Below the pieces are notes generated by a model. That model saw only the letters and a program-made list of their open reading frames with translations, was not told the origin of the DNA and did not search any database. The position numbers were made by a program, and so were the translations under genes. From Bacteroidales bacterium (GTDB lineage Bacteria; Bacteroidota; Bacteroidia; Bacteroidales; UBA10428), in the NCBI GenBank assembly GCA_016931575.1, contig JAFGEO010000079.1, positions 24,853-88,852 on the forward strand: a stretch of 64,000 bases of DNA. The letters run 5' to 3'. Positions 2,139-17,833 of this stretch are shown here, one piece after another; position 1 is the stretch's first letter; each line of letters begins with the position of its first letter.

Positions 2139-4625
2139 ATGCAACTTTCAGAATTAAGGACGGGAACAGAGGGGGTCATCTGCAAAATCAGGGGTAGGGG
2201 AGCATTCAGGCGCAGGATAATGGAAATGGGGTTTGTTAAAGGTAAGACTGTAAGGGTAATAAAGAACGCTCCGCTGAAAGATCCTATTGAATATGAGCTT
2301 TTGGGATACAGAGTATCATTGCGTAAATCCGAAGCCGAACTTATTGAGGTCAGACAGGATGTCATGACTGAAGAGACGAAAGTGAAAGATATTTTTTTTC
2401 GAAATGAGCGATCCGAACGAATCCTGGCACCCTTATTGGGAAATTCAATCAATGTGGCTTTTGTCGGAAATCCAAATGCAGGAAAAACATCCATATTTAA
2501 TTTTACCTCGCGGTCAAATGAGCATACCGGAAACTACTCCGGGGTGACCATTGATTCCAAGACTGCTGTACTGAAAAAATTCGGGCATACCTATCACATC
2601 ACCGACTTACCGGGGACATACTCTTTATCGGCCTATTCTCCGGAGGAACTTTTTGTCAGGGAGTACATTACTGATAAAATACCGGATGTAGTTGTAAATG
2701 TGGTCGATGCATCAAACCTCGAAAGAAACCTGTACCTGACAACCCAGCTCATTGACATGGATATTCGCGTAGTTCTGGCGTTTAATATGTACGATGAGCT
2801 TGAGAAGCGCGATGATCTCCTCGACCGCGAAATGCTTTCAAAATTATTGGGCATTCCCATTGTGCCCACGGTAGGTTCGAAGGGAAAAGGGATTGACGAT
2901 CTCCTTAAAAAAATCGCAGGAGTATTTAACGATACAGACAGTTACACACGCCATATCCATATCAATTACGGACAGGAAATAGAAGCTTCCATTGCCAGGA
3001 TCCAGGATTTGATAAAGGTTCCTGAAAACTTTAAAATAACTGACAGGGTTTCTTCCCGCTTTATTGCGATTAAATTGCTGGAAAAAGATCGCCATGTGGC
3101 CCAGTACATTGATTCTGCACCCAATCATGATGAGATCCTTGCCCTTGCAGAAAAGGAACGTAAACGCGTGGAAAACCTGATAGGCGAAGATATGGCATCG
3201 CTGCTGACCGAAAAGCGCTACGGTTTTATCAGCGGCGCGCTGCATGAAACATTTGAAAGGAATAAGCAGTACGAGGTCAGGACATCGGAGATCCTCGACA
3301 GCTTGCTGACCCATAAACTTTTTGGCTTTCCTTTCTTTATCTTTTTTATGTGGCTGATGTTTACAGCAACCTTTAAATTGGGGGCATATCCCCAGGGATG
3401 GATAGAAAGCGGGGTGTTGGAGCTAAACAAACTGCTTCATGATATCATGCCAGAGGGTTCCCTGCGTGACCTGCTCACCGAGGGGATTATAGGTGGGGTC
3501 GGGGGCGTAATCGTTTTCCTGCCTAATATTCTGATCCTGTTCCTTTTTATTTCATTTATGGAAGATTCGGGATACATGGCCCGCGCGGTATTTATCATGG
3601 ATAAGCTGATGCATAAAATTGGCCTGCATGGTAAGTCCTTTATTCCCCTCATTATGGGATTTGGATGCAATGTGCCGGCCATTATGGCTACCCGTACCAT
3701 TGAGGACAGGAATAACCGCATTCTGACGATCCTGATTAATCCCTTTATGTCCTGCTCGGCACGTTTACCGGTTTACCTTCTTTTGATCGGGGCCATTTTC
3801 CCGGCATATCAGGGAACCATTCTCTTTGGACTGTACTTTTTGGGCATTCTTATAGCTATTGGGGTAGCGATCCTGTTCAAGAAGCTCGTATTCAAGACCG
3901 AAGGGACCCCTTTTGTGATGGAACTGCCTCCATACCGTTTGCCTACACTGCGATCCTCTACCAAGCATATGTGGGGCAAGGGCTCGCAGTACCTGAAAAA
4001 AATGGGAGGGGTAATCCTCCTTGCTTCCATTCTCCTGTGGGCTTTGGGGTACTTCCCCAGACCAAAGGATGAGCCTGCCGGGGAAGAGACTACTGAAATT
4101 ATGCTGACTGTCAGCACGAACCCTGATGCGTCCAATCGCAGTCAAAACGTACAACTTGACCAGGAGGCTGATCCGGGGATTGAACAGTTGGAAAATTCGT
4201 ATATAGCACGTATCGGAAAATTTATCGAACCGGCAATCCGCCCCCTGGGCTTTGACTGGAAGATGGGGGTGAGCCTGTTGGCCGGTATTGCTGCCAAAGA
4301 GGTTGTTGTCAGCACACTGGGTGTGATGTACCACGAAGATGTTGAAGAAGACGGGGAGGAACTTTATTTGGCACAAAAGCTGAGATCCGAGAAGTATGTT
4401 AAAGGGCCTTACCAGGGGGAGCTCGTGTTCAATCCCCTGGCTACCTTGTCCTTTCTGGTCTTCGTGCTGATCTATTTCCCATGCATCGCTGTTTTTGCAG
4501 CCGTGAGGAAAGAAACCGGGAATATTGGCTGGGCTTTTCTGATGATCGGATACACAACAGTGCTTGCCTACCTGGTATCGCTGATGATCTTTCAGACAGG
4601 AAAATTGTTTACTATACTATTATGA
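2139..4625 (+). CDS. feoB: Ferrous iron transporter B with N-terminal fused FeoA domain
   Basis: FeoA-like first 75 aa, then G1 motif GNPNAGKTS, DLPGTYSL, and FeoB Gate/C regions. Confidence 0.95.
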   Translation: MQLSELRTGTEGVICKIRGRGAFRRRIMEMGFVKGKTVRVIKNAPLKDPIEYELLGYRVSLRKSEAELIEVRQDVMTEETKVKDIFFRNERSERILAPLLGNSINVAFVGNPNAGKTSIFNFTSRSNEHTGNYSGVTIDSKTAVLKKFGHTYHITDLPGTYSLSAYSPEELFVREYITDKIPDVVVNVVDASNLERNLYLTTQLIDMDIRVVLAFNMYDELEKRDDLLDREMLSKLLGIPIVPTVGSKGKGIDDLLKKIAGVFNDTDSYTRHIHINYGQEIEASIARIQDLIKVPENFKITDRVSSRFIAIKLLEKDRHVAQYIDSAPNHDEILALAEKERKRVENLIGEDMASLLTEKRYGFISGALHETFERNKQYEVRTSEILDSLLTHKLFGFPFFIFFMWLMFTATFKLGAYPQGWIESGVLELNKLLHDIMPEGSLRDLLTEGIIGGVGGVIVFLPNILILFLFISFMEDSGYMARAVFIMDKLMHKIGLHGKSFIPLIMGFGCNVPAIMATRTIEDRNNRILTILINPFMSCSARLPVYLLLIGAIFPAYQGTILFGLYFLGILIAIGVAILFKKLVFKTEGTPFVMELPPYRLPTLRSSTKHMWGKGSQYLKKMGGVILLASILLWALGYFPRPKDEPAGEETTEIMLTVSTNPDASNRSQNVQLDQEADPGIEQLENSYIARIGKFIEPAIRPLGFDWKMGVSLLAGIAAKEVVVSTLGVMYHEDVEEDGEELYLAQKLRSEKYVKGPYQGELVFNPLATLSFLVFVLIYFPCIAVFAAVRKETGNIGWAFLMIGYTTVLAYLVSLMIFQTGKLFTILL

Positions 4626-4936: not shown

Positions 4937-5566
4937 GTGCGACTGTCATTTTTATGCATTTTCATTACGAAACATATACACATAGTGAAAAAACTAACTT
5001 TAGGGCAAATCGTCGAAGGTATCCGAAAGCGGGATAATGCTGTCCTGTCGGTTATCTATAAGGAAATCTTTCCCGTTGTCCGATACTATGTGATGGCCAA
5101 TGGCGGAACCCAGGAAGACGCTAAGGACGTGTTCCAGGAATCCATGATCATCGTTTTCAGGAAAATATCAAGGGACTCGGTTGAAATTACTACCGGCTTC
5201 GAAGCTTATCTCTATGGAATTGCCAGAATGGTGTGGCTTAAAATCCTAAGAAACAGGGATATTCATGACCGTAACATCGTTAAGCTCGAAGAACCCGAGG
5301 TGGGCTATTATGAGAATGATGAGCTGATGGAGGAGGACCTGGAAATGCGCTTGTTCAGAAAGTATTTCCTTAAACTGGGTAAGGAATGCCAGGATCTCCT
5401 TACAATGATCTCTGAGGAAGTTCCCTATGAGACGATCGCTAAGCAAATGGGATATAAGAATGAGAAAGTTGTCCGGAACAAGAAATATAAATGCAAGGAA
5501 GTCCTGATGAAGATGATAAAGTCGGATCGGGAGTATCAGAAGATTGCCGCCAGGCTTAAAAAGTAA
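4937..5566 (+). CDS. ECF-like sigma-70 family RNA polymerase sigma factor (start may be GTG at 4985)
   Basis: Region 2-like EDAKDVFQESMIIVFRKI and region 4-like ECQDLLTMISEEVPYETIAKQMGYKNEKVVRNKKYKCKEVL. Confidence 0.8.
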   Translation: MRLSFLCIFITKHIHIVKKLTLGQIVEGIRKRDNAVLSVIYKEIFPVVRYYVMANGGTQEDAKDVFQESMIIVFRKISRDSVEITTGFEAYLYGIARMVWLKILRNRDIHDRNIVKLEEPEVGYYENDELMEEDLEMRLFRKYFLKLGKECQDLLTMISEEVPYETIAKQMGYKNEKVVRNKKYKCKEVLMKMIKSDREYQKIAARLKK

Positions 5567-8390
5567 GCTTTCTTCTTTTTCGGATGTACCAGGCAATTCC
5601 TGCAAGGGCTGCGAGGAAAAGAGCCGATATTCCCAGTATCCACCAATTTGAGTCCTCAGGTTCTTCAGTATAAAGCGGGTCAGGATTGCCCACTACTGAA
5701 AATGCAGACCAGAAGAAGGGATGCGAAGCTTCAGGCAGGCATTCCTTCAGGTACTTGAGCTTAGCCAGACGCAAGGCTTCAGACTTGGACTTACCCTTTC
5801 TTAATTGTGCATAAAACTCGACCATCAGGAGGGATCCCGACAAATCTTCAACTTCCCACATGGTCATTACCATGCTGGGGGTACCTGCGTATGCGAATCC
5901 CCTTGCCAGACTAAGGACACCTTCCCCTTTACTGTATTCACCCTCGCCGGTACTGCAAGCGCTGAGAACTACCATCCGGGCATTCAGGTCAAGCCCGAAT
6001 ACCTCATAAGTGTTTAGCAATCCGTCATGCAGACTGTCTGGTTCCGGGGCAAAAATCAACTTGGAATAAAGCGGGTTCTTATTATCCAGGATCGCGTGCA
6101 TCGCCAGGTGGATGATATCGTATTGTGCAACTTTTTCGCGGAAGGTCTTCTCGGTGGCACTGAACCTGGAGAAAACATCAGCCTTCATGGTTTTCTTAAG
6201 CATCTTGGCTTCGTTCAGTGCCCCGGGGATGGGATTGAGCTTAAGGTTTAATTCGAGGGCGGAACGTTGTGTATATTTCTCCCGCTGAACCTCTTCGGGT
6301 AATAATCCATACGAGGGAGCAAAGGCCAGCAGCTTGTTGACATTTTTCCTTGGCCGCTGTTCAATGCCCTTAATATACAGAGTTGAAGAAAAGGCATAGG
6401 AGATATTGTAATCAAGCAGCAGGTAATCGAGGTTTTTATAGCTTGTGTATCCGTTAGCAGAGGGCATGCTGCGGATGAGTGTCTCAAAGGGCAGGTAGGA
6501 GAGTACATCATCCGGAACTACGATCAGGTGGGTGGCTTTAAGCTTGCTGGCAAAGGGTTCAATCAATAATTGATACAGGTAATGGCTCTGTTCGCAGAAC
6601 AAGCTGAAATCTTTTCCCGACTGCCGGCTGAAATCAAAATGATGAAAATTATCCAGGTATGCCCGGACGATAGTATCAAATTCCCCTGGGACCATCTGTG
6701 CACAGTAGTCTATGGAATTTCCCGTGATACAAAAGGTGTGGAGCGCTGTATCGGTCAGGTTATACTGAAGCACAGCATACTCATTTCCCAGGTGTTTTTG
6801 TAAGTCTGCAATCCCGGAAACGCTGGGGTCATACTTCAGTTGATGGTACTTTGGGAATTCCTTTTCAAACAGATCGACAAGCCTGGTATACTGTTTGAAG
6901 GCTTCAAAATAGCGGGATTCCCATTCGGCAAGCCTGAGGCTGTCCGGAACTCCCTTTTGCTTTTCCTCATAGATACTGGCCTTATATAATCCCAAACGGG
7001 TATCCAGGTCCTTTTCCTTCCTCAGCAGGGAATCCGGTATTCCTCCAAGGTCTTTGGCATTTAGTTCACGCAGGGTGGAGAGCAGGATGGCTGATTTTGA
7101 GCGTTCCGACACGTTGAAAGCCTTGCGGATCAGGTCAACTCTGTCCAGCTGGTCATAACTCAATGCAATCAGATCCAGGCTGTTATTAAATATCTCGTAC
7201 TGGTAGCTGGCAATTCTGATCTTACTTTCATAGTGAAGTTTGCTGTTACGCAGGCTTTCTATGATTTCCAGTGCGAGCAGATCGCACTCCAGGGCTTCTG
7301 AAAGATAGTTGGCATCCCCGCTGCCTGAGAAAAGTTCAAGGAAGCATTTGCTTTTCGATTTGAGAATGGTAATGGAAATTAATTGATCGTCAATAATTTC
7401 CAGTTTCGGGTTGTCAAATACATCCTGGGGGGAAAATTTCGGGGATGCGACCGTAAGTGCTTCCTGATAATAGCTTAGGGCTTCCTGGTATTTCGCTTGT
7501 TTGAGTAATAAAGAGCCGTAGCTGTCCAGTACGTATGCTTTTGAGAATAAGCCCTCTGTGTCTGTCTTTTTATAGATTGACAGGGCATACTCGAGATATT
7601 GCTTTGCTTTCTCCAGTTCTCCGGTTTTGATATAATCCATCCCCAGATTGTTATAGGTAAGCGCTATACTTTTGGTGCTCGCGTCGGGGTCTTTTTTCAG
7701 CTCAGTTAAAGCACTCTCCTGGAGCATAATGCTTTTCTGCAGATCTCCCCTTTTGGCATAAATATCCGCCATGCCCGACAGAATTGAGTAGCGTAAGAAA
7801 TGATTCCCTGTCAGGTCGGCATACTTTAAATTCTGGGTATAATAGGAGAGGGCGAGGTCATAATTCTCCTGATACCATTCATTTTCTGCTATTCTGTATA
7901 TTAGGGCGGCTACCCGTGCAACCGGAGGATCGCTGGTTGCCGAATAGATTTGCCGGGCCTTTTTCAGCGCAATGCCCGCCTGGAGGTGATCCCCCAGGTT
8001 GATATAGGTCCTTCCCATGTAGGTGTATAAATGGGCTAAAATTAACGGATCGCAGTCCGGACAGTTTTTGTGATTCCTTTCAGCCTCTTGTAAATAATAA
8101 AGGGATGAGTCGTACTCCCAGGTTTGGATATGCCCTATTGCGAGGTTGACGTAGCTACTGACCATCTCGGAAGAATTTTCCGGATACAGCCTTTTCCGGA
8201 TCCCATGGATCTTTCGGATGAGGCGAAGCGATTCCTCCTGATCTCCCCTTGCCATCGAATTTTTTGCCGACTCCAGCAGGGTCTGTATGGAATCCTGAGG
8301 TGAGGTTTGCGAATGCAAGGGAATGGTTCTTCCAGCCCCGAAAAGCAGGATTAAAAAAAGGGCGCGCATGAAAGTTCCGGTTCGGGTCAT
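5556..8390 (-). CDS. TPR-repeat CHAT-domain putative protease with signal peptide and C-terminal TM anchor
   Basis: N-terminal hydrophobic signal, multiple TPRs, CHAT core with HLAMHA (His) and VVLSACSTGEG (Cys), C-terminal WWILGISALFLAALAGIAWYIRKRRK. Confidence 0.9.
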   Translation of the reverse strand: MTRTGTFMRALFLILLFGAGRTIPLHSQTSPQDSIQTLLESAKNSMARGDQEESLRLIRKIHGIRKRLYPENSSEMVSSYVNLAIGHIQTWEYDSSLYYLQEAERNHKNCPDCDPLILAHLYTYMGRTYINLGDHLQAGIALKKARQIYSATSDPPVARVAALIYRIAENEWYQENYDLALSYYTQNLKYADLTGNHFLRYSILSGMADIYAKRGDLQKSIMLQESALTELKKDPDASTKSIALTYNNLGMDYIKTGELEKAKQYLEYALSIYKKTDTEGLFSKAYVLDSYGSLLLKQAKYQEALSYYQEALTVASPKFSPQDVFDNPKLEIIDDQLISITILKSKSKCFLELFSGSGDANYLSEALECDLLALEIIESLRNSKLHYESKIRIASYQYEIFNNSLDLIALSYDQLDRVDLIRKAFNVSERSKSAILLSTLRELNAKDLGGIPDSLLRKEKDLDTRLGLYKASIYEEKQKGVPDSLRLAEWESRYFEAFKQYTRLVDLFEKEFPKYHQLKYDPSVSGIADLQKHLGNEYAVLQYNLTDTALHTFCITGNSIDYCAQMVPGEFDTIVRAYLDNFHHFDFSRQSGKDFSLFCEQSHYLYQLLIEPFASKLKATHLIVVPDDVLSYLPFETLIRSMPSANGYTSYKNLDYLLLDYNISYAFSSTLYIKGIEQRPRKNVNKLLAFAPSYGLLPEEVQREKYTQRSALELNLKLNPIPGALNEAKMLKKTMKADVFSRFSATEKTFREKVAQYDIIHLAMHAILDNKNPLYSKLIFAPEPDSLHDGLLNTYEVFGLDLNARMVVLSACSTGEGEYSKGEGVLSLARGFAYAGTPSMVMTMWEVEDLSGSLLMVEFYAQLRKGKSKSEALRLAKLKYLKECLPEASHPFFWSAFSVVGNPDPLYTEEPEDSNWWILGISALFLAALAGIAWYIRKRRKLTF

Positions 8391-8419
8391 GAGTATCGGG
8401 GCTCGGAGCCTCTAAAATA

Positions 8420-8440
8420 GAAAATTTCATCAAAATTTTC
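8420..8440. promoter_or_regulatory. Perfect 8-bp inverted repeat upstream of CHAT gene (candidate operator)
   Basis: GAAAATTT-CATCA-AAATTTTC, 30-50 bp upstream of the CHAT start. Confidence 0.35.
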
Positions 8441-8561
8441 ACATCTGTAAGTAGTTGAAAAACAATATGATGTAATTTTTTTTAAAAAAAGTTGCAAAAA
8501 AGCGGGGACATTTTGGGGGGAAGTGGAACATATATATACAACATCTTTAAACCCCGAGAAA

Positions 8562-8708
8562 ATGAAAAACGCTAAAAGAACAGTTTTAAAAATGAATAAT
8601 GAATTATTCGCTAACCAGGAATTAAGTTATAACGACATGCTGGCTGTCAGAGGTGGTGAAAAAGGAAAAGACGATCAGGGAGGTGAAGCCAGTGACGGCC
8701 TGACTTAA
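8562..8708 (+). CDS. Small GG-leader peptide, candidate natural-product/bacteriocin-type precursor (ORF track start 8523 is GTG; ATG at 8562 preferred)
   Basis: MKNAKRTVLKMNNELFANQELSYNDMLAVRGG|EKGKDDQGGEASDGLT; leader ends in LxxxxMLAVRGG; C39 exporter in same locus. Confidence 0.8.
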   Translation: MKNAKRTVLKMNNELFANQELSYNDMLAVRGGEKGKDDQGGEASDGLT

Positions 8709-8765
8709 AAATTGTAGAAGACACAAGAGATAAATTAAAATATAAAAAGCAAAAAAAGGATCCCC

Positions 8766-8848
8766 AGGCGAGATAAATAATGGTTTATACGGCACACAAT
8801 CTCTATTCCTATCCTTTTCAGGATTTTGTCTCGCCTCCTTTTTTTTTA
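8766..8848 (+). terminator. Candidate terminator after the GG-peptide gene, long loop
   Basis: AGGCGAGATAAA (8766-8777) pairs with TTTGTCTCGCCT (8825-8836), followed by a T tract. Confidence 0.5.
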
Positions 8849-9113
8849 AAACATTACGGGTCATGATGGCCTGTTGAATCAGAGTTGATCTGCCGTAGTC
8901 CGGCAGGTTTATGGTAACGGACTGTAAACGGACATTTACCGGCGTGTAGCCGGGTTATATTGAAGAAGCGTTAAAATATATAAGCTTGTACACCTGGATT
9001 TAAAAAACTTCGACAGGAAGAGCGGGAGAGGTATATCCTGTTTATCCGGAGAAGAATATCGAAAAGGTAGTTGATACTACCCATATAAAGAATATTAAAT
9101 AATTTTTTATACT

Positions 9114-9890
9114 ATGAAACAGGAAATGGACTATTCAGGGTATGTGGATAGGTACCTGGATGGCATTATGAGCCCTGAAGAAGAAAAATGGTTTAAAAAG
9201 GAGCTTGAGGGGAATTCCTTCCTTGAGCAGGAACTGGAGTTTCAATCTAAACTAAACCAGAGTATTAGCCAAAGGGAACTTATTGAGCTGGAAGACCAGC
9301 TGAATACCATCTACAAAAACACCTACAATCCCGTATCCCGGTTTGCAAAGATCAAAAGGAAGACAGTTGCAATTAGTGCGGCAGCTGTTGTTGCATCCCT
9401 TATGATCTATTTTGCGGCCAGTTATTGGATTAACCGGCCAGAGGATCTTGCGCTGCAATTTTCTTCCCCACTGGATTTATATGCCTCCTACTATCAACCG
9501 GCTGAAATGAGCATGAGTTTCAGGGCGGCCGGTGATGTGGTTGACAGTGAGCTCAGGGAGGCTATGAAACTCTATGATCGGAAGGAATATTCAGAGGCGA
9601 TTTTACTCTTTGAAAAAATTCTCAGCGATGATGCCTCCCGGATAGGCTTAAACCTTTACTCGGGAATTTCTCACATGGAATTAGAAGAGTATACTGAAGC
9701 GAATACAAGTTTCAGGAAAATTATCGATGACAGGTCCAATGCATTCATTGAATCGGCAGAGTGGTACCTTGGGCTGTGTTATCTGAAAACTGAAGATGTT
9801 GAATTATCAAAACAGGTATTCGAGAATATTGCCAGCGGAAGCAGCTATTATAAGGCTGATGCGGAGCGTATTTTGAATTTACTTGAATAA
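9114..9890 (+). CDS. Anti-sigma-like single-TM protein with C-terminal TPR
   Basis: N-terminal YVDRYLDGIMSPEEEKWFKKELEGN resembles Bacteroidetes anti-sigma N-termini; one TM (VAISAAAVVASLMIYFAASYW); TPR-like C-terminus. Confidence 0.65.
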   Translation: MKQEMDYSGYVDRYLDGIMSPEEEKWFKKELEGNSFLEQELEFQSKLNQSISQRELIELEDQLNTIYKNTYNPVSRFAKIKRKTVAISAAAVVASLMIYFAASYWINRPEDLALQFSSPLDLYASYYQPAEMSMSFRAAGDVVDSELREAMKLYDRKEYSEAILLFEKILSDDASRIGLNLYSGISHMELEEYTEANTSFRKIIDDRSNAFIESAEWYLGLCYLKTEDVELSKQVFENIASGSSYYKADAERILNLLE

Positions 9891-10010
9891 AGCTTTCATT
9901 ATCACAACGGGGTTATCAGGGAACAGGCAATTTTTGCCTTTCCCTGATTTACAAGATTTTGAAACGAAGGAGTGAGATCAGGAATTTTTTAAAACCAAAA
10001 AAAAAGGACT

Positions 10011-10940
10011 ATGGGTTTTACAGGTTCTATTTCGGGGGCTTTTCAGAAATTGCGTCATGCTTTTATTAAAAAGCCGGATACGGGGAAAGATGTTGAACTC
10101 GAGTATCTTCATAAGCGGGTGATCTTTCTGGAACAGCTCCTGGAAGAAAAGAACGACTGTATTGAAAAAGCCAAATCAAGTTTCCTGAAAAACCTTTACC
10201 ATGAAATTCGAACTCCTTTGAATGCTATTATCGGGTTCTCAGACCTCATTGAGTTAAACAATATCAGGGGTCATGAAAAGGATGAGTATGTGAAGCACAT
10301 TCGTGAAAGCAGTCGTGAATTTTTGCGAAAGATGGATAACATCATTGAAGCCTCCATTATTGAAGCAGGGCTTCTGAAGATACAGAAGGAGCAGTGCCGG
10401 CTCCATGAGCTCATGAGCGAGATTCACTCCTATTTTTCACTTCACAAACACATTACTGAAAAACATATTGCCTTCCTTTTGAGTATTCCGGGGGAACTAA
10501 AGAAAACTGAGGTGATCTGTGATATTTTCAGGCTTACCCAGGTGTTGACGCACCTGATCAACAACGCCTTCAAATACACCTTTAAGGGGGTTGTGGAGAT
10601 AGGTTGTGCTGTGGAAGACAAGAATCTGCTCTTTTTTGTTAAGGACAGCGGAATTGGCGGGTTGGAGGGTCTGGAGGCGACGATCTTCAAAAATTTCTCC
10701 AAGAAGGGTGATGTCAGTGAGGAACAGGAAGGGCTTGGTCTGGGCCTGGGACTGTCAAAAAGTATTGTGGAACAGATGGGTGGCACAATTTGGTATGAAT
10801 CCCTGAAAGAGAAGGGAACAACCTTCTATTTCACAATTCCTTACCAACCTGTCTACGTTAAGAGACGAAAGAGACAGACAGTGATCACCAGGGATTTGAT
10901 CCTTAGCGAGAGGTTGTATAAAAGGTCAGTGATCGTTTAG
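10011..10940 (+). CDS. Soluble histidine kinase (HisKA-HATPase) without recognisable sensor domain
   Basis: H-box FLKNLYHEIRTPLNAIIGFSDLI, G box GLGLGLGLSKSIVEQMGGTIW, no TM or PAS. Confidence 0.85.
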   Translation: MGFTGSISGAFQKLRHAFIKKPDTGKDVELEYLHKRVIFLEQLLEEKNDCIEKAKSSFLKNLYHEIRTPLNAIIGFSDLIELNNIRGHEKDEYVKHIRESSREFLRKMDNIIEASIIEAGLLKIQKEQCRLHELMSEIHSYFSLHKHITEKHIAFLLSIPGELKKTEVICDIFRLTQVLTHLINNAFKYTFKGVVEIGCAVEDKNLLFFVKDSGIGGLEGLEATIFKNFSKKGDVSEEQEGLGLGLGLSKSIVEQMGGTIWYESLKEKGTTFYFTIPYQPVYVKRRKRQTVITRDLILSERLYKRSVIV

Positions 10941-11013
10941 TTTTCAGGATAAAACTTGCATTTATATAGAATTTCGTTTAAGTTTCACTCAGAAATGCTC
11001 TCAATGTAAGTCG

Positions 11014-13203
11014 ATGCCTAAATTCCCTGTTTTCCTGCAACGTGATGCCAATGATTGCGGACCCTCCTGCCTGAGGATGATCGCTGCACATTATGGCAGA
11101 ACTTACAGCCTTGAATCATTAAGGGATAAATCGTTCATCAACCGACAGGGGGTTTCCCTGTTGGGGATCAGTGATGCTGCTGAGTCTATCGGTTTTCGTA
11201 CCCGGGGACTAAAGCTGAGTTTTGAACAGCTCAGGAAGGATATACAGTTACCCTGCATCGTTCATTGGAATCAGTCGCATTTCGTTGTGGTTGTTCGTGC
11301 AGGGAAGGAAAAGGTGGTGGTAGCCGATCCGGCATTTGGTATCATCACCCACAGCAGGGCAGAGTTCCTGAAATGCTGGGCATCCACCATAGAGGATGGC
11401 GAACCGCTGGGGATTTGCCTGCAATTGCAGCCCGGTCCTGAGTTTTACCAGTTACTGGGGGAACAGGTGAATCGGAAAAGCCTCGGGTTCCTTGTCCGCT
11501 ATCTGAAACCATACAAAAAACTTATCTGGCAGATCCTGCTGGGTGTTATCCTGGGAGCATTGCTGCAGGTCATTTTCCCCTTTCTTTTTCAGACCATTGT
11601 CGATAAGGGGGTGATCGTACCCAACCTCACGCTGATCATCACCATACTCATAGCCCAACTCATCCTGGTGACAAGCAGGTTTTCGCTTGAACTGATCCGG
11701 AACTGGATCATACTGCATCTGGGAGCCCGGGTGAATATCTTTCTGGTATCTGATTTTCTGATCAAGCTCATGCAGTTGCCCGTATCCTTCTTTGACAGCA
11801 GGAACAGGGGCGATTTGCTTCAGCGGGTCGCTGATCACAGGCGGATTGAAAAATTTCTCACCCAGACCACCATAGAGTTGTTCCATTCGGTGTTTTCCAT
11901 AAGCATTATGGGCATTGTTCTGGCACTATTCGATATACGGATTTTCCTGATCTTTCTGTCAGGAAGTGTGCTATACCTGCTATGGGCCCTGCGATTCATG
12001 AAACTCCGGCGGGAACTTGACAACCGCAAGTTTGCACAGCTTTCTGATAATCAAAGCTCCTTGATCCAGCTACTGACCGGAATGCATGAGATCAAGCTCA
12101 ATCACTGTGAGAAACGTAAGCGCTGGGAGTGGGAAGATATCCAGGCCAGGCTCTTCAGGATAAATTTGAAAAGCCTTTCTTTACAGCAGAAGCAGCGTGC
12201 CGGGGCATTAATATTCAATCAGTACAAAGATGTACTCATTGTTGTGTACGCTGCAGTGATGGTATTCAATGGACAGATGACATTGGGAAGCCTGGTAGCC
12301 ATTTCATATGTTATCGGTCAGTTGTCAGGTCCTATCGACCAGTTGATCGATTTCCTTCATGAAACACAGGATGCCAGGATCAGTCTTGACCGACTGGCTG
12401 AGATCCATGAAAAGGAAATTGAAGAAAATGTGGACAGCAGTCCCCTATTCAGCCTGACATCAGCTCATGCTATCACAGTTCAGGGACTTTCATTTCAGTA
12501 TGAAGGACCCCATTCCCCTTTTGTTCTTAAGGGGCTTGACCTGGTTATTCCTCAGGATAAGGTTACGGCAATCGTGGGAATTAGTGGAAGTGGTAAAACC
12601 ACCCTTGTGAAAATGCTGCTTCAGTTTTACAAAGCCGTAGAAGGGGATATTTTTGTAGGCGACACCAATCTGCAGGAAATCAGTCCGGCATTTTGGCGCA
12701 GGCAATGCGGAGTTGTCATGCAGGATGGTTACCTGTTTTCGGATACCATTGCCCGGAACATTGCACTTTCTGACGAACAGATTGATAAAGAAAAACTGGT
12801 TTATGCCTCGCGGATGGCCAATATTCAGGAGATGGTCGGCAGCCTGCCCCTGGGTTACAATACTAAAATTGGTCCCGACGGACTAGGTCTCAGCCAGGGA
12901 CAAAAGCAACGTTTACTTATTGCCCGGGCATTGTATAAAGATCCTTCTTTCCTTTTCTTCGATGAAGCGACAAATTCTCTGGATGCCAATAATGAGCGGG
13001 TAATTATGGAAAACCTGTTTGAGTTTTTTAAGGGAAGGACGGTAGTAGTTGTGGCGCACCGTCTGAGTACGGTTAAAAATGCCGATCAGATTGTTGTGCT
13101 TGAAAAGGGGGAGATCATAGAACGGGGAAATCATAAGGAGCTGACAGGGAAAAAGGGAGCATACTATAACCTGGTAAGGAATCAACTTGAACTGGGTACA
13201 TAA
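11014..13203 (+). CDS. Peptidase-containing ABC transporter (C39 peptidase, TM domain, ATPase)
   Basis: C39 motif QRDANDCGPSCLRMIAAHYG, SHFVVV and DPAFG; Walker A GISGSGKTT, signature LSQGQKQR, FFDEATNSLD. Confidence 0.95.
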   Translation: MPKFPVFLQRDANDCGPSCLRMIAAHYGRTYSLESLRDKSFINRQGVSLLGISDAAESIGFRTRGLKLSFEQLRKDIQLPCIVHWNQSHFVVVVRAGKEKVVVADPAFGIITHSRAEFLKCWASTIEDGEPLGICLQLQPGPEFYQLLGEQVNRKSLGFLVRYLKPYKKLIWQILLGVILGALLQVIFPFLFQTIVDKGVIVPNLTLIITILIAQLILVTSRFSLELIRNWIILHLGARVNIFLVSDFLIKLMQLPVSFFDSRNRGDLLQRVADHRRIEKFLTQTTIELFHSVFSISIMGIVLALFDIRIFLIFLSGSVLYLLWALRFMKLRRELDNRKFAQLSDNQSSLIQLLTGMHEIKLNHCEKRKRWEWEDIQARLFRINLKSLSLQQKQRAGALIFNQYKDVLIVVYAAVMVFNGQMTLGSLVAISYVIGQLSGPIDQLIDFLHETQDARISLDRLAEIHEKEIEENVDSSPLFSLTSAHAITVQGLSFQYEGPHSPFVLKGLDLVIPQDKVTAIVGISGSGKTTLVKMLLQFYKAVEGDIFVGDTNLQEISPAFWRRQCGVVMQDGYLFSDTIARNIALSDEQIDKEKLVYASRMANIQEMVGSLPLGYNTKIGPDGLGLSQGQKQRLLIARALYKDPSFLFFDEATNSLDANNERVIMENLFEFFKGRTVVVVAHRLSTVKNADQIVVLEKGEIIERGNHKELTGKKGAYYNLVRNQLELGT

Positions 13204-14540
13204 TGAAAGGGATGATCATAAGCGATAAGGACCGGGAAAAAGCGCAGGGTGTTGAACTGCGCAGCGAGCAGCTCAGGGATATCCTTGGGCAGGTGCCGCG
13301 TTGGATCGTGCGCTATGGGACGGTATTGATCTTCCTGATCATTCTGGTTCTTTTTATTGGTTCGGCCCTGCTGCGATATCCCGATGTAATTGCCGCCCGG
13401 CTGGTTCTCACAACCGAGACTCCACCTGTCCAGCTTATTGCCAAAAAGACATCCAAAATATGCAGCCTGCTGGTTGATGATAAGTCACCGGTAGCAGAGG
13501 GACAGCTGCTGGCTGTTTTGACATCTTCTGCTGATTACCGCGATGCCTTAAACCTCAGGAAATTGCTTGGGGAGCGTTTTATCTATGACTCCTTGATTGT
13601 CACAAATTTTCCTGATAAACTCAAGCTGGGGATGATGCAGGAAAGTTATGCGGGCTTTCAGAAACGCCGACAGGAGAATCTGAGTTTTATTGAACAGGAT
13701 AATTACAGGCGGATGATCCGCTTCTATGAAGGTAATTTAGGCAAATATAGCCGACTGGTCGGGGATAAAAAGGCTGAGGCTGAAGCAGCCGGACAGGTTT
13801 ACGGTCTGGCCAGAAAGAAATACATGAGGGATTCCACCCTGATGGTGCAGTCTCCACGAAGCATTGCTCCGGCTGAAGTTGAAAGATCGGAGCAGGAAAT
13901 GCTTGAGACCCTGAGGGCCTGGAGATCTGCCAGGGCGCAATTATCCACTGCAGATATAGAACTATCAAATCTGCAGCAACAAATGCTCTCTAAACAACTG
14001 GAATATGAAGAGGCTGTCAGCAGGCAGCAGCAAGCTCTCCAGGAAGCCTATGAGGCGCTTATCGGACAGCTGGCCGATTGGGAAGACCTGTATATTCTCA
14101 GGGCTCCATTTAGCGGAAAGGCATCCTTTATCCGGATTTGGAGCGAGTCCCAGAATGTTCAGCAGGGAGATGTAGTGCTGACCATATTGCCCCTTGAAGA
14201 GGGGAATATCCTTGGGAAAGCCATGCTCGATATGGAAGGCATCGGGAAGATCAAAGCAGATCAGAAAGCCATTATCCGCTTTGCAAATTATCCCTACATG
14301 GAATTTGGCACGCTCAGCGGCACAGTGACATCCATCTCCCTGGTCCCTGTAGAGGGCTCTTATATGGCAGAAATCCGGCTGGATAGCAACAGGCTGATAA
14401 CCAACTATGGAAAGGAACTTGAATTTCAGCAAAATATGCAGGGAATTGCAGAAATTATCACGGGCGATCGTTCCCTGCTGCAACGCATTACCGACCCATT
14501 CCGCTCGGCATTCAGAAGACAGCGGATGCTTGATGAGTAA
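13203..14540 (+). CDS. HlyD-family membrane fusion/adaptor protein
   Basis: Single N-terminal TM, coiled-coil hairpin, lipoyl-like segments; overlaps stop of ABC exporter. Confidence 0.85.
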   Translation: MKGMIISDKDREKAQGVELRSEQLRDILGQVPRWIVRYGTVLIFLIILVLFIGSALLRYPDVIAARLVLTTETPPVQLIAKKTSKICSLLVDDKSPVAEGQLLAVLTSSADYRDALNLRKLLGERFIYDSLIVTNFPDKLKLGMMQESYAGFQKRRQENLSFIEQDNYRRMIRFYEGNLGKYSRLVGDKKAEAEAAGQVYGLARKKYMRDSTLMVQSPRSIAPAEVERSEQEMLETLRAWRSARAQLSTADIELSNLQQQMLSKQLEYEEAVSRQQQALQEAYEALIGQLADWEDLYILRAPFSGKASFIRIWSESQNVQQGDVVLTILPLEEGNILGKAMLDMEGIGKIKADQKAIIRFANYPYMEFGTLSGTVTSISLVPVEGSYMAEIRLDSNRLITNYGKELEFQQNMQGIAEIITGDRSLLQRITDPFRSAFRRQRMLDE

Positions 14541-14590: not shown

Positions 14591-17500
14591 TTATTCGGCC
14601 ACCGGAAGTGTGAATATAAAGGTAGTCCCTACGTTCACTTCACTTTGAATGGTGATGGTGCCCTTGTTTTTTTCAACGAACTCTTTACAGATGATAAGAC
14701 CAAGACCGGTTCCGCTTTCGCCCGCTGTTCCCGAGGTAGAAAAATATTCATCAATATGGAAAAGCTTTTGAATATTTTCCTCAGCGATGCCGACGCCTGT
14801 ATCGGCAATTGAGATGGATATCATATCGCTATTCTGTTCATCCATCTCACAATGAATCGTGACGATGCCCCCTTCACTGGTGAATTTAATCGCATTACTC
14901 AGCAGGTTCCGGATAACCAGGTTGATCATATTCCGGTCGGCATATGCCTGTTTTGTACAACGGACATCGGATACCAGTTCCAGGTGTTTATTTTCGGCAC
15001 TTGCCTGGCTCAGCTCGATATTCTGTTGGATAATTTCACCAATATTGATAGTATCCGGATTGTATTTTATTCTTTCGGTTTGAGTTCTGGCCCACTGAAG
15101 CAAATTCTCCAGGAGGTTGTAAGCACTTTCCGAAGAAGATTTTATCATGCCCAGCAGCTCCATTTTCTGAGGATTTTCGAATTCATCGTAATTCCGCATC
15201 AACAACTCCGAAAATCCAAAGATGGCCTGGAAAGGATTCTTCAGGTCATGGGCAATAATTGAGAAGAACTTATTTTTTGTAGCATTAAGTTCTTCAAGCT
15301 GCGTATTTGTTTTCTTAAGGATTTGGGCCTGCTTGTTAATTTCTTCCGATTGGTTTTGGATTTTCTCCTGCCGCTCTTCCAGGATGATATTCACTTCCTG
15401 GAGGTTTTGGGCCTGTTCACGCAGCTGTTCCTCTGCACGTTTCTGTTTGGTTATATCCCTTCCGATCCCTACAATCCCGCATATTTTTCCGTCGGCATCC
15501 CGAAAAGGAACTTTGGTTGTGGAGATTACCCTCTCGCGCAGGTTTTCATCGTAGCCGATCTCCTCCTTATTGATGATGGGCTTTCCGCTTTCAATGATTT
15601 TTTTATCATCTTCAAGATAGACTTTCGCGGCTTCTTTTGAAGGTGCGGTTTCGAAATCCGTTTTTCCGACAATCATGTCCAGATTATTAAATTTCATCAC
15701 ATTGAGAAGCCGTTTGTTAACTGTCAGGAAACGACTTTCAATATCTTTAATATAAATGTAATCGGGCATGTTGTCGATGAGGGTCCTCAGGAGGGTACGC
15801 TCGCTTTCAAGAATTTTGTTCTGTTCGCCAAGGGACTCAGATTGCTTTTGAATTTCTTCCTGGCGTTCTTCAAGGAGCATGTTGTTATTCTTCAGATCGG
15901 CAGCCTGTTTCTTGAGAGTTTCCTCATAGGCTTTAATATCTGTGATATCCCGGCCCACGCCGACGATACCGGCAACTTTGCCTTCCGCATCGTAAAACGG
16001 GACCTTGGAAGTCAGGATGATCCTTTCATTTCCATCAATATCCATTCCCAACTCCTCTTTGGAGATGAGCGGTTTTTCCGTTTTTATGATATTCTGCTCA
16101 TCCTTATAAAACTCCTCAGCCATTTTTTTCGGGAAATAGTCGAAATCGGTTTTCCCTTCAAGTTGTTCAAATTCAGGCACTTTCATTACTGTATGTACCT
16201 GCTTGTTTGCGACAATAAACCGACTTTCCTTATCTTTGATATAAATAAAGTCAGGCAGAGTGTCAATGAGGGTTCGGAGCAGGTTGCGTTCATTTTCCAA
16301 CAGGTTATTATGAGATGCAAGTTCACTGGCCTGCTGTTGGATTTCTTCCTGTCGTTCCTCAAGCAGCACATTAGCTTCCTTCAGGTGTTCGGCCTGCTCC
16401 TGAAGCTTGATTTCAGTCTCCTTCTCAGCGGTGATATCCCTGCTGATGCCTATCATGCCGACAATTTCTCCTTCCGGATTGAAGAACGGTACCCTGGAGG
16501 TGAGCAGTTTGATGAAGTTTCCATTTTCATCAAAGCCGATTTCTTCAAATTCATACTGTGCAATTCCGGTGCGCAGAACCGAGATATCTGCTTCGTGGTG
16601 CCTGGCTGCATAATCCGCCGGTAGAAAATCTTCAACGGTCCTGCCGATGATAAGATCAAGGTCGTTAGTTTTCAGGACTCCCATCTCCTTCTTATTGACG
16701 GTTATGTAACGTCCGTCGGTGTCTTTCAGATAGGCATAATCCGGGATACTGTCAATGAAGGTCCGGAGAAGGTTCCGTTCCTCTTCAAGCATTTTATTTT
16801 GAGTGCTTAGCTCATCGGACTGCTGGTTTATTTCTTCCTGTCGTTCTTCCAGGAGTACATTAATCTCCTGAAGGCTCTGAGCCTGTTCTTTTAGTTTTTC
16901 TTCTGCTTCCTTTTGCCGGGTAATATCCCTTCCTATGCCTACCAGGCCAATGATATTGCCCTCACTGTCGCGGAATGGGACCTTCGTGGTAGATTTAACC
17001 AGGATGTTCCCATCGGCATCAAATCCGATTTCTTCTTTATTTATTACTGGTTTACCTGACTCGAGTACATGCTTGTCATCCTTATAAAATATCTCAGCGA
17101 TATCCCGGGGATAGAAATCAAAATCCGTTTTTCCCAGCAGGTTTTGATGTGTTCCGGCCTTGGTAATTGTTACCTGGCAGATATTTCCGTCCAGGAATCG
17201 GCATTCAGTGTCTTTTATGTAGATAGTATCCGGCATATTATCCATCAGGGCGCGGAACAGTGAACGTTCTTTTTCAAGGGTGGAATTCTTTTCCTCAAGC
17301 AGGGTGGATGCTATCTCCTGTTCCGTGATATCGGAGCAGGTCGCCATTATTCCAAGGATCCTGCCCTTTTTATTTTTCACAGGGACTTTCTTTACCAGGA
17401 TCGTTCCGGTTGAGCCATCCAGATCATAGCTAACCTTCTTTTTAATGAAGGATTTGATCCCGTTCAGAATCTGAATGTCCTCATCGATTTGATCCTGATT

Positions 17501-17833
17501 GTCAGCATTCTGAAAAAGTTCTTCATCGGTTTTTCCATAGATTTCTTCCGGAGAGGGCATTTTAATGTAATCTGCATAACGATTATTGCTCAAAACATAG
17601 CGCATCGAATTATCCTTGATATATATTCCGTCGGGGCTGTTGTTAATCAGAATGTTTAACTGATCGCTCTCGTCGAAAATGCTCTCGGCGGTAATATAAA
17701 TCCCTCTTAGCTTTCTTCTGTGGATATAGCGGTAGATCAGAAGGCCTCCAAACGTGGCGGATACCCCAATGAGAAATGCTAAAACTGCTGGGAATAAAAT
17801 TCCAACAGGGATAATTTGAAGAATAACATTCAT
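14591..17833 (-). CDS. Multi-PAS sensor histidine kinase with five PAS modules
   Basis: Repeated LLRTLIDxxPDxxYIKDxxxRF...GIGRDIT modules joined by similar LEERQEEIQ linkers; HDLKNPFQAIFGFSELL H-box. Confidence 0.9.
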   Translation of the reverse strand: MNVILQIIPVGILFPAVLAFLIGVSATFGGLLIYRYIHRRKLRGIYITAESIFDESDQLNILINNSPDGIYIKDNSMRYVLSNNRYADYIKMPSPEEIYGKTDEELFQNADNQDQIDEDIQILNGIKSFIKKKVSYDLDGSTGTILVKKVPVKNKKGRILGIMATCSDITEQEIASTLLEEKNSTLEKERSLFRALMDNMPDTIYIKDTECRFLDGNICQVTITKAGTHQNLLGKTDFDFYPRDIAEIFYKDDKHVLESGKPVINKEEIGFDADGNILVKSTTKVPFRDSEGNIIGLVGIGRDITRQKEAEEKLKEQAQSLQEINVLLEERQEEINQQSDELSTQNKMLEEERNLLRTFIDSIPDYAYLKDTDGRYITVNKKEMGVLKTNDLDLIIGRTVEDFLPADYAARHHEADISVLRTGIAQYEFEEIGFDENGNFIKLLTSRVPFFNPEGEIVGMIGISRDITAEKETEIKLQEQAEHLKEANVLLEERQEEIQQQASELASHNNLLENERNLLRTLIDTLPDFIYIKDKESRFIVANKQVHTVMKVPEFEQLEGKTDFDYFPKKMAEEFYKDEQNIIKTEKPLISKEELGMDIDGNERIILTSKVPFYDAEGKVAGIVGVGRDITDIKAYEETLKKQAADLKNNNMLLEERQEEIQKQSESLGEQNKILESERTLLRTLIDNMPDYIYIKDIESRFLTVNKRLLNVMKFNNLDMIVGKTDFETAPSKEAAKVYLEDDKKIIESGKPIINKEEIGYDENLRERVISTTKVPFRDADGKICGIVGIGRDITKQKRAEEQLREQAQNLQEVNIILEERQEKIQNQSEEINKQAQILKKTNTQLEELNATKNKFFSIIAHDLKNPFQAIFGFSELLMRNYDEFENPQKMELLGMIKSSSESAYNLLENLLQWARTQTERIKYNPDTINIGEIIQQNIELSQASAENKHLELVSDVRCTKQAYADRNMINLVIRNLLSNAIKFTSEGGIVTIHCEMDEQNSDMISISIADTGVGIAEENIQKLFHIDEYFSTSGTAGESGTGLGLIICKEFVEKNKGTITIQSEVNVGTTFIFTLPVAE

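Follow-up and report, generated by a model that had tools for sequence, protein, structure and literature searches.

A sigma factor, a TPR-CHAT caspase-like protease and a membrane TPR protein almost certainly constitute a genuine, conserved cassette of the Bacteroidales, in which the protease gene is commonly preceded by a divergent gene for a short double-glycine (GG) leader peptide. The best explanation for this arrangement is a peptide-autoinducer signalling system, a reading to which we give about an even chance. The cassette was analysed in a window of 64,000 nucleotides from contig JAFGEO010000079.1 of an uncultured Bacteroidales bacterium, the genome of which comprises 4.8 Mb in 168 contigs and carries the CHAT gene as a single copy. 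The elements of the locus, in window coordinates, are as follows.

2139-4625: feoB, flanking the locus on one side
4937..5566, + strand: ECF-type sigma factor gene, from Pfam and NCBIfam profiles; adjoins the CHAT gene in relatives; start codon uncertain
5556..8390, - strand: TPR-CHAT caspase-like protease, predicted to be exported and to have a C-terminal transmembrane (TM) anchor, from Pfam, topology, AF2 and Foldseek
8504..8532, + strand: promoter-like motif GGGGACATTTTGGGGGGAAGTGGAACATA, upstream of the GG peptide and in the same place in relatives
8562..8708, + strand: GG-leader peptide precursor of 48 aa, with a leader at 8562-8657 (32 aa) and the predicted core EKGKDDQGGEASDGLT at 8658-8705
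8766..8836, + strand: terminator- or attenuator-like, genus-specific hairpin with the conserved loop TGGTTT.TACGGCAC and a T run after it
9114..9890, + strand: membrane TPR protein, predicted anti-sigma factor, co-located with the sigma factor; predicted cytoplasmic N-terminal helical domain, TM segment and periplasmic TPR part
10011..10940, + strand: soluble HisKA/HATPase histidine kinase (Pfam), with neither a TM segment nor a recognisable sensor domain
11014..13203, + strand: C39-peptidase ABC exporter of double-glycine peptides (Peptidase_C39 3.1e-36, ABC_membrane, ABC_tran)
13203..14540, + strand: HlyD-type periplasmic adaptor (HlyD_3 9.5e-10; type_I_hlyD 3.5e-28)
14591-17833, - strand: multi-PAS histidine kinase, flanking the locus on the other side

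All seven genes of the peptide-export system proposed by the first-pass annotation were confirmed, each in its place. Their consecutive order also stood, but because the sigma factor and CHAT genes are convergent, with overlapping 3' ends, and the CHAT and peptide genes are divergent, the seven do not form a single transcription unit. The flanking multi-PAS kinase gene is convergent with the HlyD gene, and its synteny is kept within the genus.

The sigma factor matches Pfam Sigma70_r2 (7.5e-7, 29.3 against a threshold of 24) and exceeds, barely, the cut-off of the ECF-wide NCBIfam profile sigma70-ECF (43.1 against 42.9 bits), a combination that identifies it as an ECF sigma factor; its start codon, GTG at 4937, is doubtful. 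The protease has both the TPR array (TPR_12) and the CHAT domain (Pfam CHAT, 9.7e-60) with the His/Cys dyad of TPR-CHAT proteases. Residues H761, H765 and C812 are invariant in an alignment of 12 rows, and the His/Cys motif is intact in 67 of the 68 loci checked. Topology prediction gave a signal-peptide-like N terminus and a C-terminal TM window at 918 followed by basic residues, in agreement with the earlier proposal of a periplasmic, C-terminally anchored protein with an intact active-site motif. When its AF2 model (pLDDT 83) was compared with the PDB by Foldseek, the first match was DdvA, a transmembrane anti-sigma factor (8rot), followed by the craspase TPR-CHAT protein and separase.

In the membrane TPR protein the TPR part follows a single TM-like stretch at about 84-102, and helices are predicted at 7-71. 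Its earlier description as anti-sigma-like is weakly favoured by this layout and by the zinc-finger anti-sigma profile zf-HC2, which matches 2 of 23 homologues, but Foldseek did not find an anti-sigma fold in the protein, the TPR part dominating its matches. Judged by the families involved, it is probably the anti-sigma factor of the system.

Relatives of the CHAT protein occur in 31 of 60 related genomes. The whole gene set is syntenic in four genomes of the same genus (G001, G002, G005 and G008), while a fifth, G007, lacks the adjacent exporter; in other families the sigma factor, CHAT and TPR protein genes are retained, with the kinase gene present or absent. A scan of GTDB representatives yielded 79 named loci, all from Bacteroidota, including Marinifilum, Labilibaculum, Ancylomarina, Prolixibacter, Mangrovibacterium, Sunxiuqinia and Maribellus. 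At 29 CHAT loci taken from elsewhere in the phylum (other classes or orders), neither the promoter-like motif nor a GG leader was found.

A divergent GG-leader ORF of 30-70 aa lies upstream of CHAT in 49 of the 67 named loci with an assessable upstream region (a hand count that includes L123 and L137). Within the 57.8 kb of intergenic strand that precedes CHAT genes, a simple GG-leader pattern identified 43 ORFs, compared with 3 in 580 kb of intergenic sequence elsewhere. A leader profile built from two families and then run on the other loci gave 15 matches in 109 kb of CHAT-upstream sequence and 1 in 2.8 Mb of other sequence. This enrichment, together with the recurrence of the cassette in many genera and families, bears out the proposal that the parts form one association. 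Several genomes carry tandem peptide genes in 2-6 copies. Leaders match bacteriocin signal models, and that of one relative exceeds the Pfam ComC cut-off; the leader in the window is a weak match to TIGR04194/PF14406. The leader profile was trained on KGG peptides, and the RGG peptide of the window falls below its threshold, so that its assignment rests on position, motif and the GG-pattern control. This precursor more likely starts at ATG 8562 than at GTG 8523, the start given by the first-pass annotation, because the latter codon sits inside the conserved promoter-like motif.

Most cores are very short and acidic and seem to carry no modification, and that of the window lacks Cys; modifying enzymes are absent beside CHAT. 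A RiPP pathway with modifying enzymes (ATP-grasp plus rSAM, or LanB/LanC) was considered and rejected, as none were present among the genes scanned at 2-19.6 kb. At the gene level, the locus has the GG leader, C39 exporter and short species-specific core of a ComC/CSP-like peptide pheromone.

The 18 peptide-less loci fall in one clade of the CHAT tree (24 rows, SH-aLRT 98). Because this clade has kept CHAT and often the sigma factor and TPR protein, these components can act without the peptide. Many of its loci (L089, L096, L110, L134, L144 and similar ones) have a gene of ~410 aa before CHAT and several also one of ~810 aa after it; in L089, L096 and L110 the motif lies upstream of the ~410 aa gene.

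The exporter of the window combines a C39 peptidase with ABC membrane and ATPase domains, and a GG substrate is encoded nearby at 8562-8708, as expected of the PCAT type. Of the 49 peptide loci, 12 have C39/HlyD genes no more than 9 kb from CHAT, and none of the 18 peptide-less loci does; in Marinifilum and Labilibaculum these genes are about 10-20 kb away. Genomes with the peptide and no adjacent exporter nevertheless encoded a close C39 homologue (54-62% identity) in 28 of 28 cases, compared with 1 of 17 peptide-less genomes (Fisher p=2.6e-11), and among relatives a C39 gene accompanied the peptide in 12 of 13 genomes and was found in 7 of 41 without it (p=1.6e-6); these p-values take no account of phylogeny, and most of the peptide-less named genomes belong to a single clade. 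Co-occurrence of the CHAT/sigma pair and the exporter/peptide pair at no more than chance level, which had been named as grounds for abandoning the association, was thus looked for and not seen. In G007, which kept the peptide, the only C39 homologue is a distant one (29% identity). In G029 and G036, a C39 gene lies in one operon with a second sigma/TPR pair, which is an independent link of the exporter to regulators of this kind. Sigma-TPR-C39 operons occur at L202 5873-9442 and L203 5321-9061, with neither CHAT nor a recognisable GG peptide nearby. Of the seven-part system proposed earlier, the sigma factor, CHAT, TPR protein and GG peptide stand as the core, whereas the exporter is frequent but often unlinked.

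The motif ahead of the peptide gene spans 29 bases and has the form GGTTACCTTTT-N10-GGAATAAA; in the genus of the window it reads GGKGACATTT-N9-GTGGAAC, with the spacing unchanged. A strict pattern for it matches before the peptide in 35 of 57 loci that have one, as against 0 of 18 peptide-less loci, and across 20 genomes 84 motif sites were found as against 6 for the reversed pattern. When a matrix was trained on peptide sites only, 14 of 49 peptide loci also proved to have a strong site 32-70 bases before the sigma factor gene, and none of 432 unrelated genes had one. An autoregulated ECF sigma factor would be expected to show such placement, and the occurrence of the motif ahead of both peptide and sigma factor genes supports the sigma feedback that had been proposed from the window, although the window's own sigma factor gene, unlike those 14, has no recognisable motif upstream. 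Position suggests that the sigma factor drives the motif, and we consider this very probable. The kinase recurs in 26 of 49 peptide-bearing loci. It is linked to the system by two peptide-less loci in which the motif precedes its gene, the sigma factor gene and the one that lies upstream of CHAT; its proposed membership holds to this extent, but it lies outside the core.

Other genes preceded by the motif in relatives encode T9SS-secreted, gingipain-like C25 proteases and a C10 protease, as well as a small lipoprotein, the gene for which is followed by one for a secreted trypsin-like protein; the sites ahead of secreted proteases are those of L280, L286, L289, L294 and L295. Further sites lie ahead of C39 clusters that carry additional GG peptides and, in Labilibaculum, ahead of a class I lanthipeptide cluster. 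In Marinifilum and Labilibaculum (L276 4765-6872, L284 9140-17809), genes with the motif upstream encode a small HTH protein and additional KGG peptides, and it also precedes C39/HlyD clusters, among them one with LanC and LanB genes (class I lanthipeptide). The genome of the window has only one other exact site, at a contig end; it lies ~256 bases before the gene for a secreted 701-aa protein that has no Pfam domains (L164 7097-9202, - strand).

Leaders and cores have diverged in different ways. Tandem paralogues in one genome have cores that are 79-100% identical and leaders that fall to 27-40% identity in the most divergent pairs, whereas between congeners the leaders are 78-100% and the cores 69-79% identical; an exception is L132, in which paralogous peptides have unrelated cores. 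In every one of 45 species pairs, the TPR segment of the CHAT protein has diverged further than the CHAT domain, and by this comparison of sequences it is hypervariable. A private ligand and its receptor would be expected to leave such a pattern of cores and leaders, combined with a variable TPR segment. Divergence of the core and of the CHAT TPR segment, corrected for CHAT-domain divergence, was nevertheless uncorrelated (partial rho 0.05, p=0.77), so that the ligand-receptor step is one that we infer. In two Marinifilum genomes (L109 and L101), the CHAT domain is 100% identical and the TPR segment 71%, while the sigma factor and TPR protein remain 97-99% identical, which looks like recombination or strong diversifying selection.

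In the proposed mechanism, a C39/HlyD machine, linked or located elsewhere in the genome, would trim the precursor after GG and export the peptide. At a threshold level the short mature peptide would be bound by the TPR superhelix of the membrane-anchored, periplasmic TPR-CHAT protein, and this recognition would activate CHAT to cut the periplasmic part of the TPR anti-sigma protein, after which intramembrane proteolysis would free the ECF sigma factor. The sigma factor would then drive transcription of the peptide gene or genes and of a small regulon for secreted products; in many genomes it would act on its own gene as well. Cleavage at GG by C39 and proteolytic release of the sigma factor are steps that we infer from the families concerned. 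That CHAT controls the TPR protein by cleavage seems somewhat more probable than not, and the peptide has perhaps an even chance of being the activating ligand of TPR-CHAT.

Each of the components could also be joined in other ways. The peptide might be the output, that is, a secreted antagonistic or scavenging peptide made under ECF/CHAT envelope sensing of another cue such as damage, foreign peptides, phage or neighbours. This is an unlikely reading, though the exoproteases and lanthipeptide cluster of the regulon, the bacteriocin-like leaders and the retention of the same regulatory core by the peptide-less clade would all suit it. However, such short, acidic and apparently unmodified cores are unlike those of class II bacteriocins, they are alike within a genome and differ between congeners, the gene found at CHAT is always the peptide and not another output, and no immunity gene was recognised. 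It is less probable still that CHAT is a second protease that trims, activates or degrades the exported peptide while the sigma/anti-sigma pair answers some other cue: the sigma factor and TPR protein accompany CHAT even where the peptide is missing, and the TPR-CHAT proteins already described serve to control sigma factors (PMC10028731; PDB 8rot), notwithstanding the strict closeness of the peptide and CHAT genes, the intact His/Cys motif and a TPR superhelix well suited to peptide binding.

The co-occurrence with the exporter, the C39 clusters under the same motif in relatives and the sigma-TPR-C39 operons without CHAT (L202, L203) would be accommodated by a self-monitoring circuit with no intercellular role, in which the peptide reports C39 flux or passage through the outer membrane and a blocked path leads to its periplasmic build-up and to activation of CHAT. 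We regard this as quite improbable, since cores differ between congeners as a private signal would, peptide copies occur in tandem and G007 has no close exporter. An accidental neighbourhood, in which ordinary exporter, sigma factor and CHAT genes are adjacent by chance, could draw on the finding that C39 is adjacent in just 12 of 49 loci, but was rejected on the genome-level co-occurrence of C39 and the positional enrichment of the GG ORF; the arrangement also recurs in many families with a shared motif, and the chance of this explanation is minimal.

Several systems that are already described come close to this one. We know of no established signal for periplasmic TPR-CHAT proteins that lie beside sigma factors. 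Peptide quorum sensing is well known in Gram-positives, and the receiver of the ComC/CSP and Blp pheromones is a two-component kinase. These streptococcal systems share with the present one a GG leader, C39 export, a species-specific short core and positive feedback, whereas here an ECF sigma factor, a membrane TPR protein and TPR-CHAT are found in a Gram-negative host.

In the DdvA/DdvS system of Myxococcus, an ECF sigma factor is held by an anti-sigma factor with TPR-CHAT as its periplasmic part; the active site of DdvA is incomplete, and it controls a defence island. DdvA is the protein whose fold is closest to that of the present protease among PDB entries (8rot), but the anti-sigma domain, TM segment and TPR-CHAT are not combined in one polypeptide here: CHAT is separate, with an intact His/Cys motif, a signal-like start and its own C-terminal TM segment, the anti-sigma-like part is on another TPR protein, and a GG peptide and C39 exporter are attached to the locus. 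Craspase (CASP; Csx29 TPR-CHAT, Csx30 and CASP-sigma) offers a TPR-CHAT protease with a strong fold match, an ECF sigma factor, a cut sigma inhibitor and a motif-based regulon; its CHAT protein cuts Csx30, and the data support relief of ECF sigma inhibition (PMC10028731). It differs in being cytoplasmic and RNA-activated by Cas7-11, while the present protease is predicted to be periplasmic. The annotated genes of the locus include no CRISPR component, and neither they nor the PADLOC matches contain the partners of craspase or type III-E CASP (Cas7-11 gRAMP, Csx30/31); a known defence system was rejected because PADLOC gave only generic TPR, ABC and ATPase models. CHAT proteins also lie near sigma factors of ECF54, a group for which a review lists control by CHAT and other proteolytic proteins as a possibility; the example is actinobacterial and described without an anti-sigma factor, and a GG peptide is not mentioned (PMC8999054), the likeness considered here being one of neighbourhood. 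Finally, the GG-leader RiPPs of Bacteroidetes (TIGR04149, class I lanthipeptide leaders, grasp-with-spasm) show weak leader similarity to the present peptide, but the CHAT locus has no modifying enzymes and the core no Cys.

The first-pass annotation knew of no described pathway that combines all these parts. This holds for the full combination, but the pairing of an ECF sigma factor with TPR-CHAT is known (craspase/CASP, PMC10028731; DdvA, 8rot; ECF54, PMC8999054). Searches of open-licence literature turned up no paper on a GG-peptide system connected with CHAT or with an ECF sigma factor in Bacteroidetes; both halves have precedents, in DdvA/DdvS and craspase on one side and ComC/CSP on the other, and the joined form was not found described there. 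Tentatively, and at somewhat below an even chance, the locus may represent a new class of Bacteroidota quorum sensing, in which a GG pheromone is received by a periplasmic caspase-like protease, an ECF sigma factor is released via its anti-sigma factor, and exoproteases and peptide weapons come under control. A conserved cassette with a switch-like promoter suggests an undescribed way in which Bacteroidales perceive one another or their environment. Should the peptide be the activator, a common and unexplained protease family would acquire a ligand and a substrate, as well as a regulon that can be measured, and if the pheromone receptor proves to be the protease, and not a kinase or a cytoplasmic TPR regulator, the signalling class would be new. 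Cultured hosts (Marinifilum, Labilibaculum, Prolixibacter and Mangrovibacterium) make the system testable with short synthetic peptides.

A minor feature of the locus is the hairpin between the GG peptide and TPR protein genes, for which no Rfam match was found. Its loop, TGGTTTTAACGGCAC, is conserved, and its stem varies in sequence, with changes on both sides in 3 of 11 pairs. A dispersed repeat was rejected as its explanation, because in 23 genomes the exact loop motif is restricted to CHAT loci; the hairpin occurs twice in G007.
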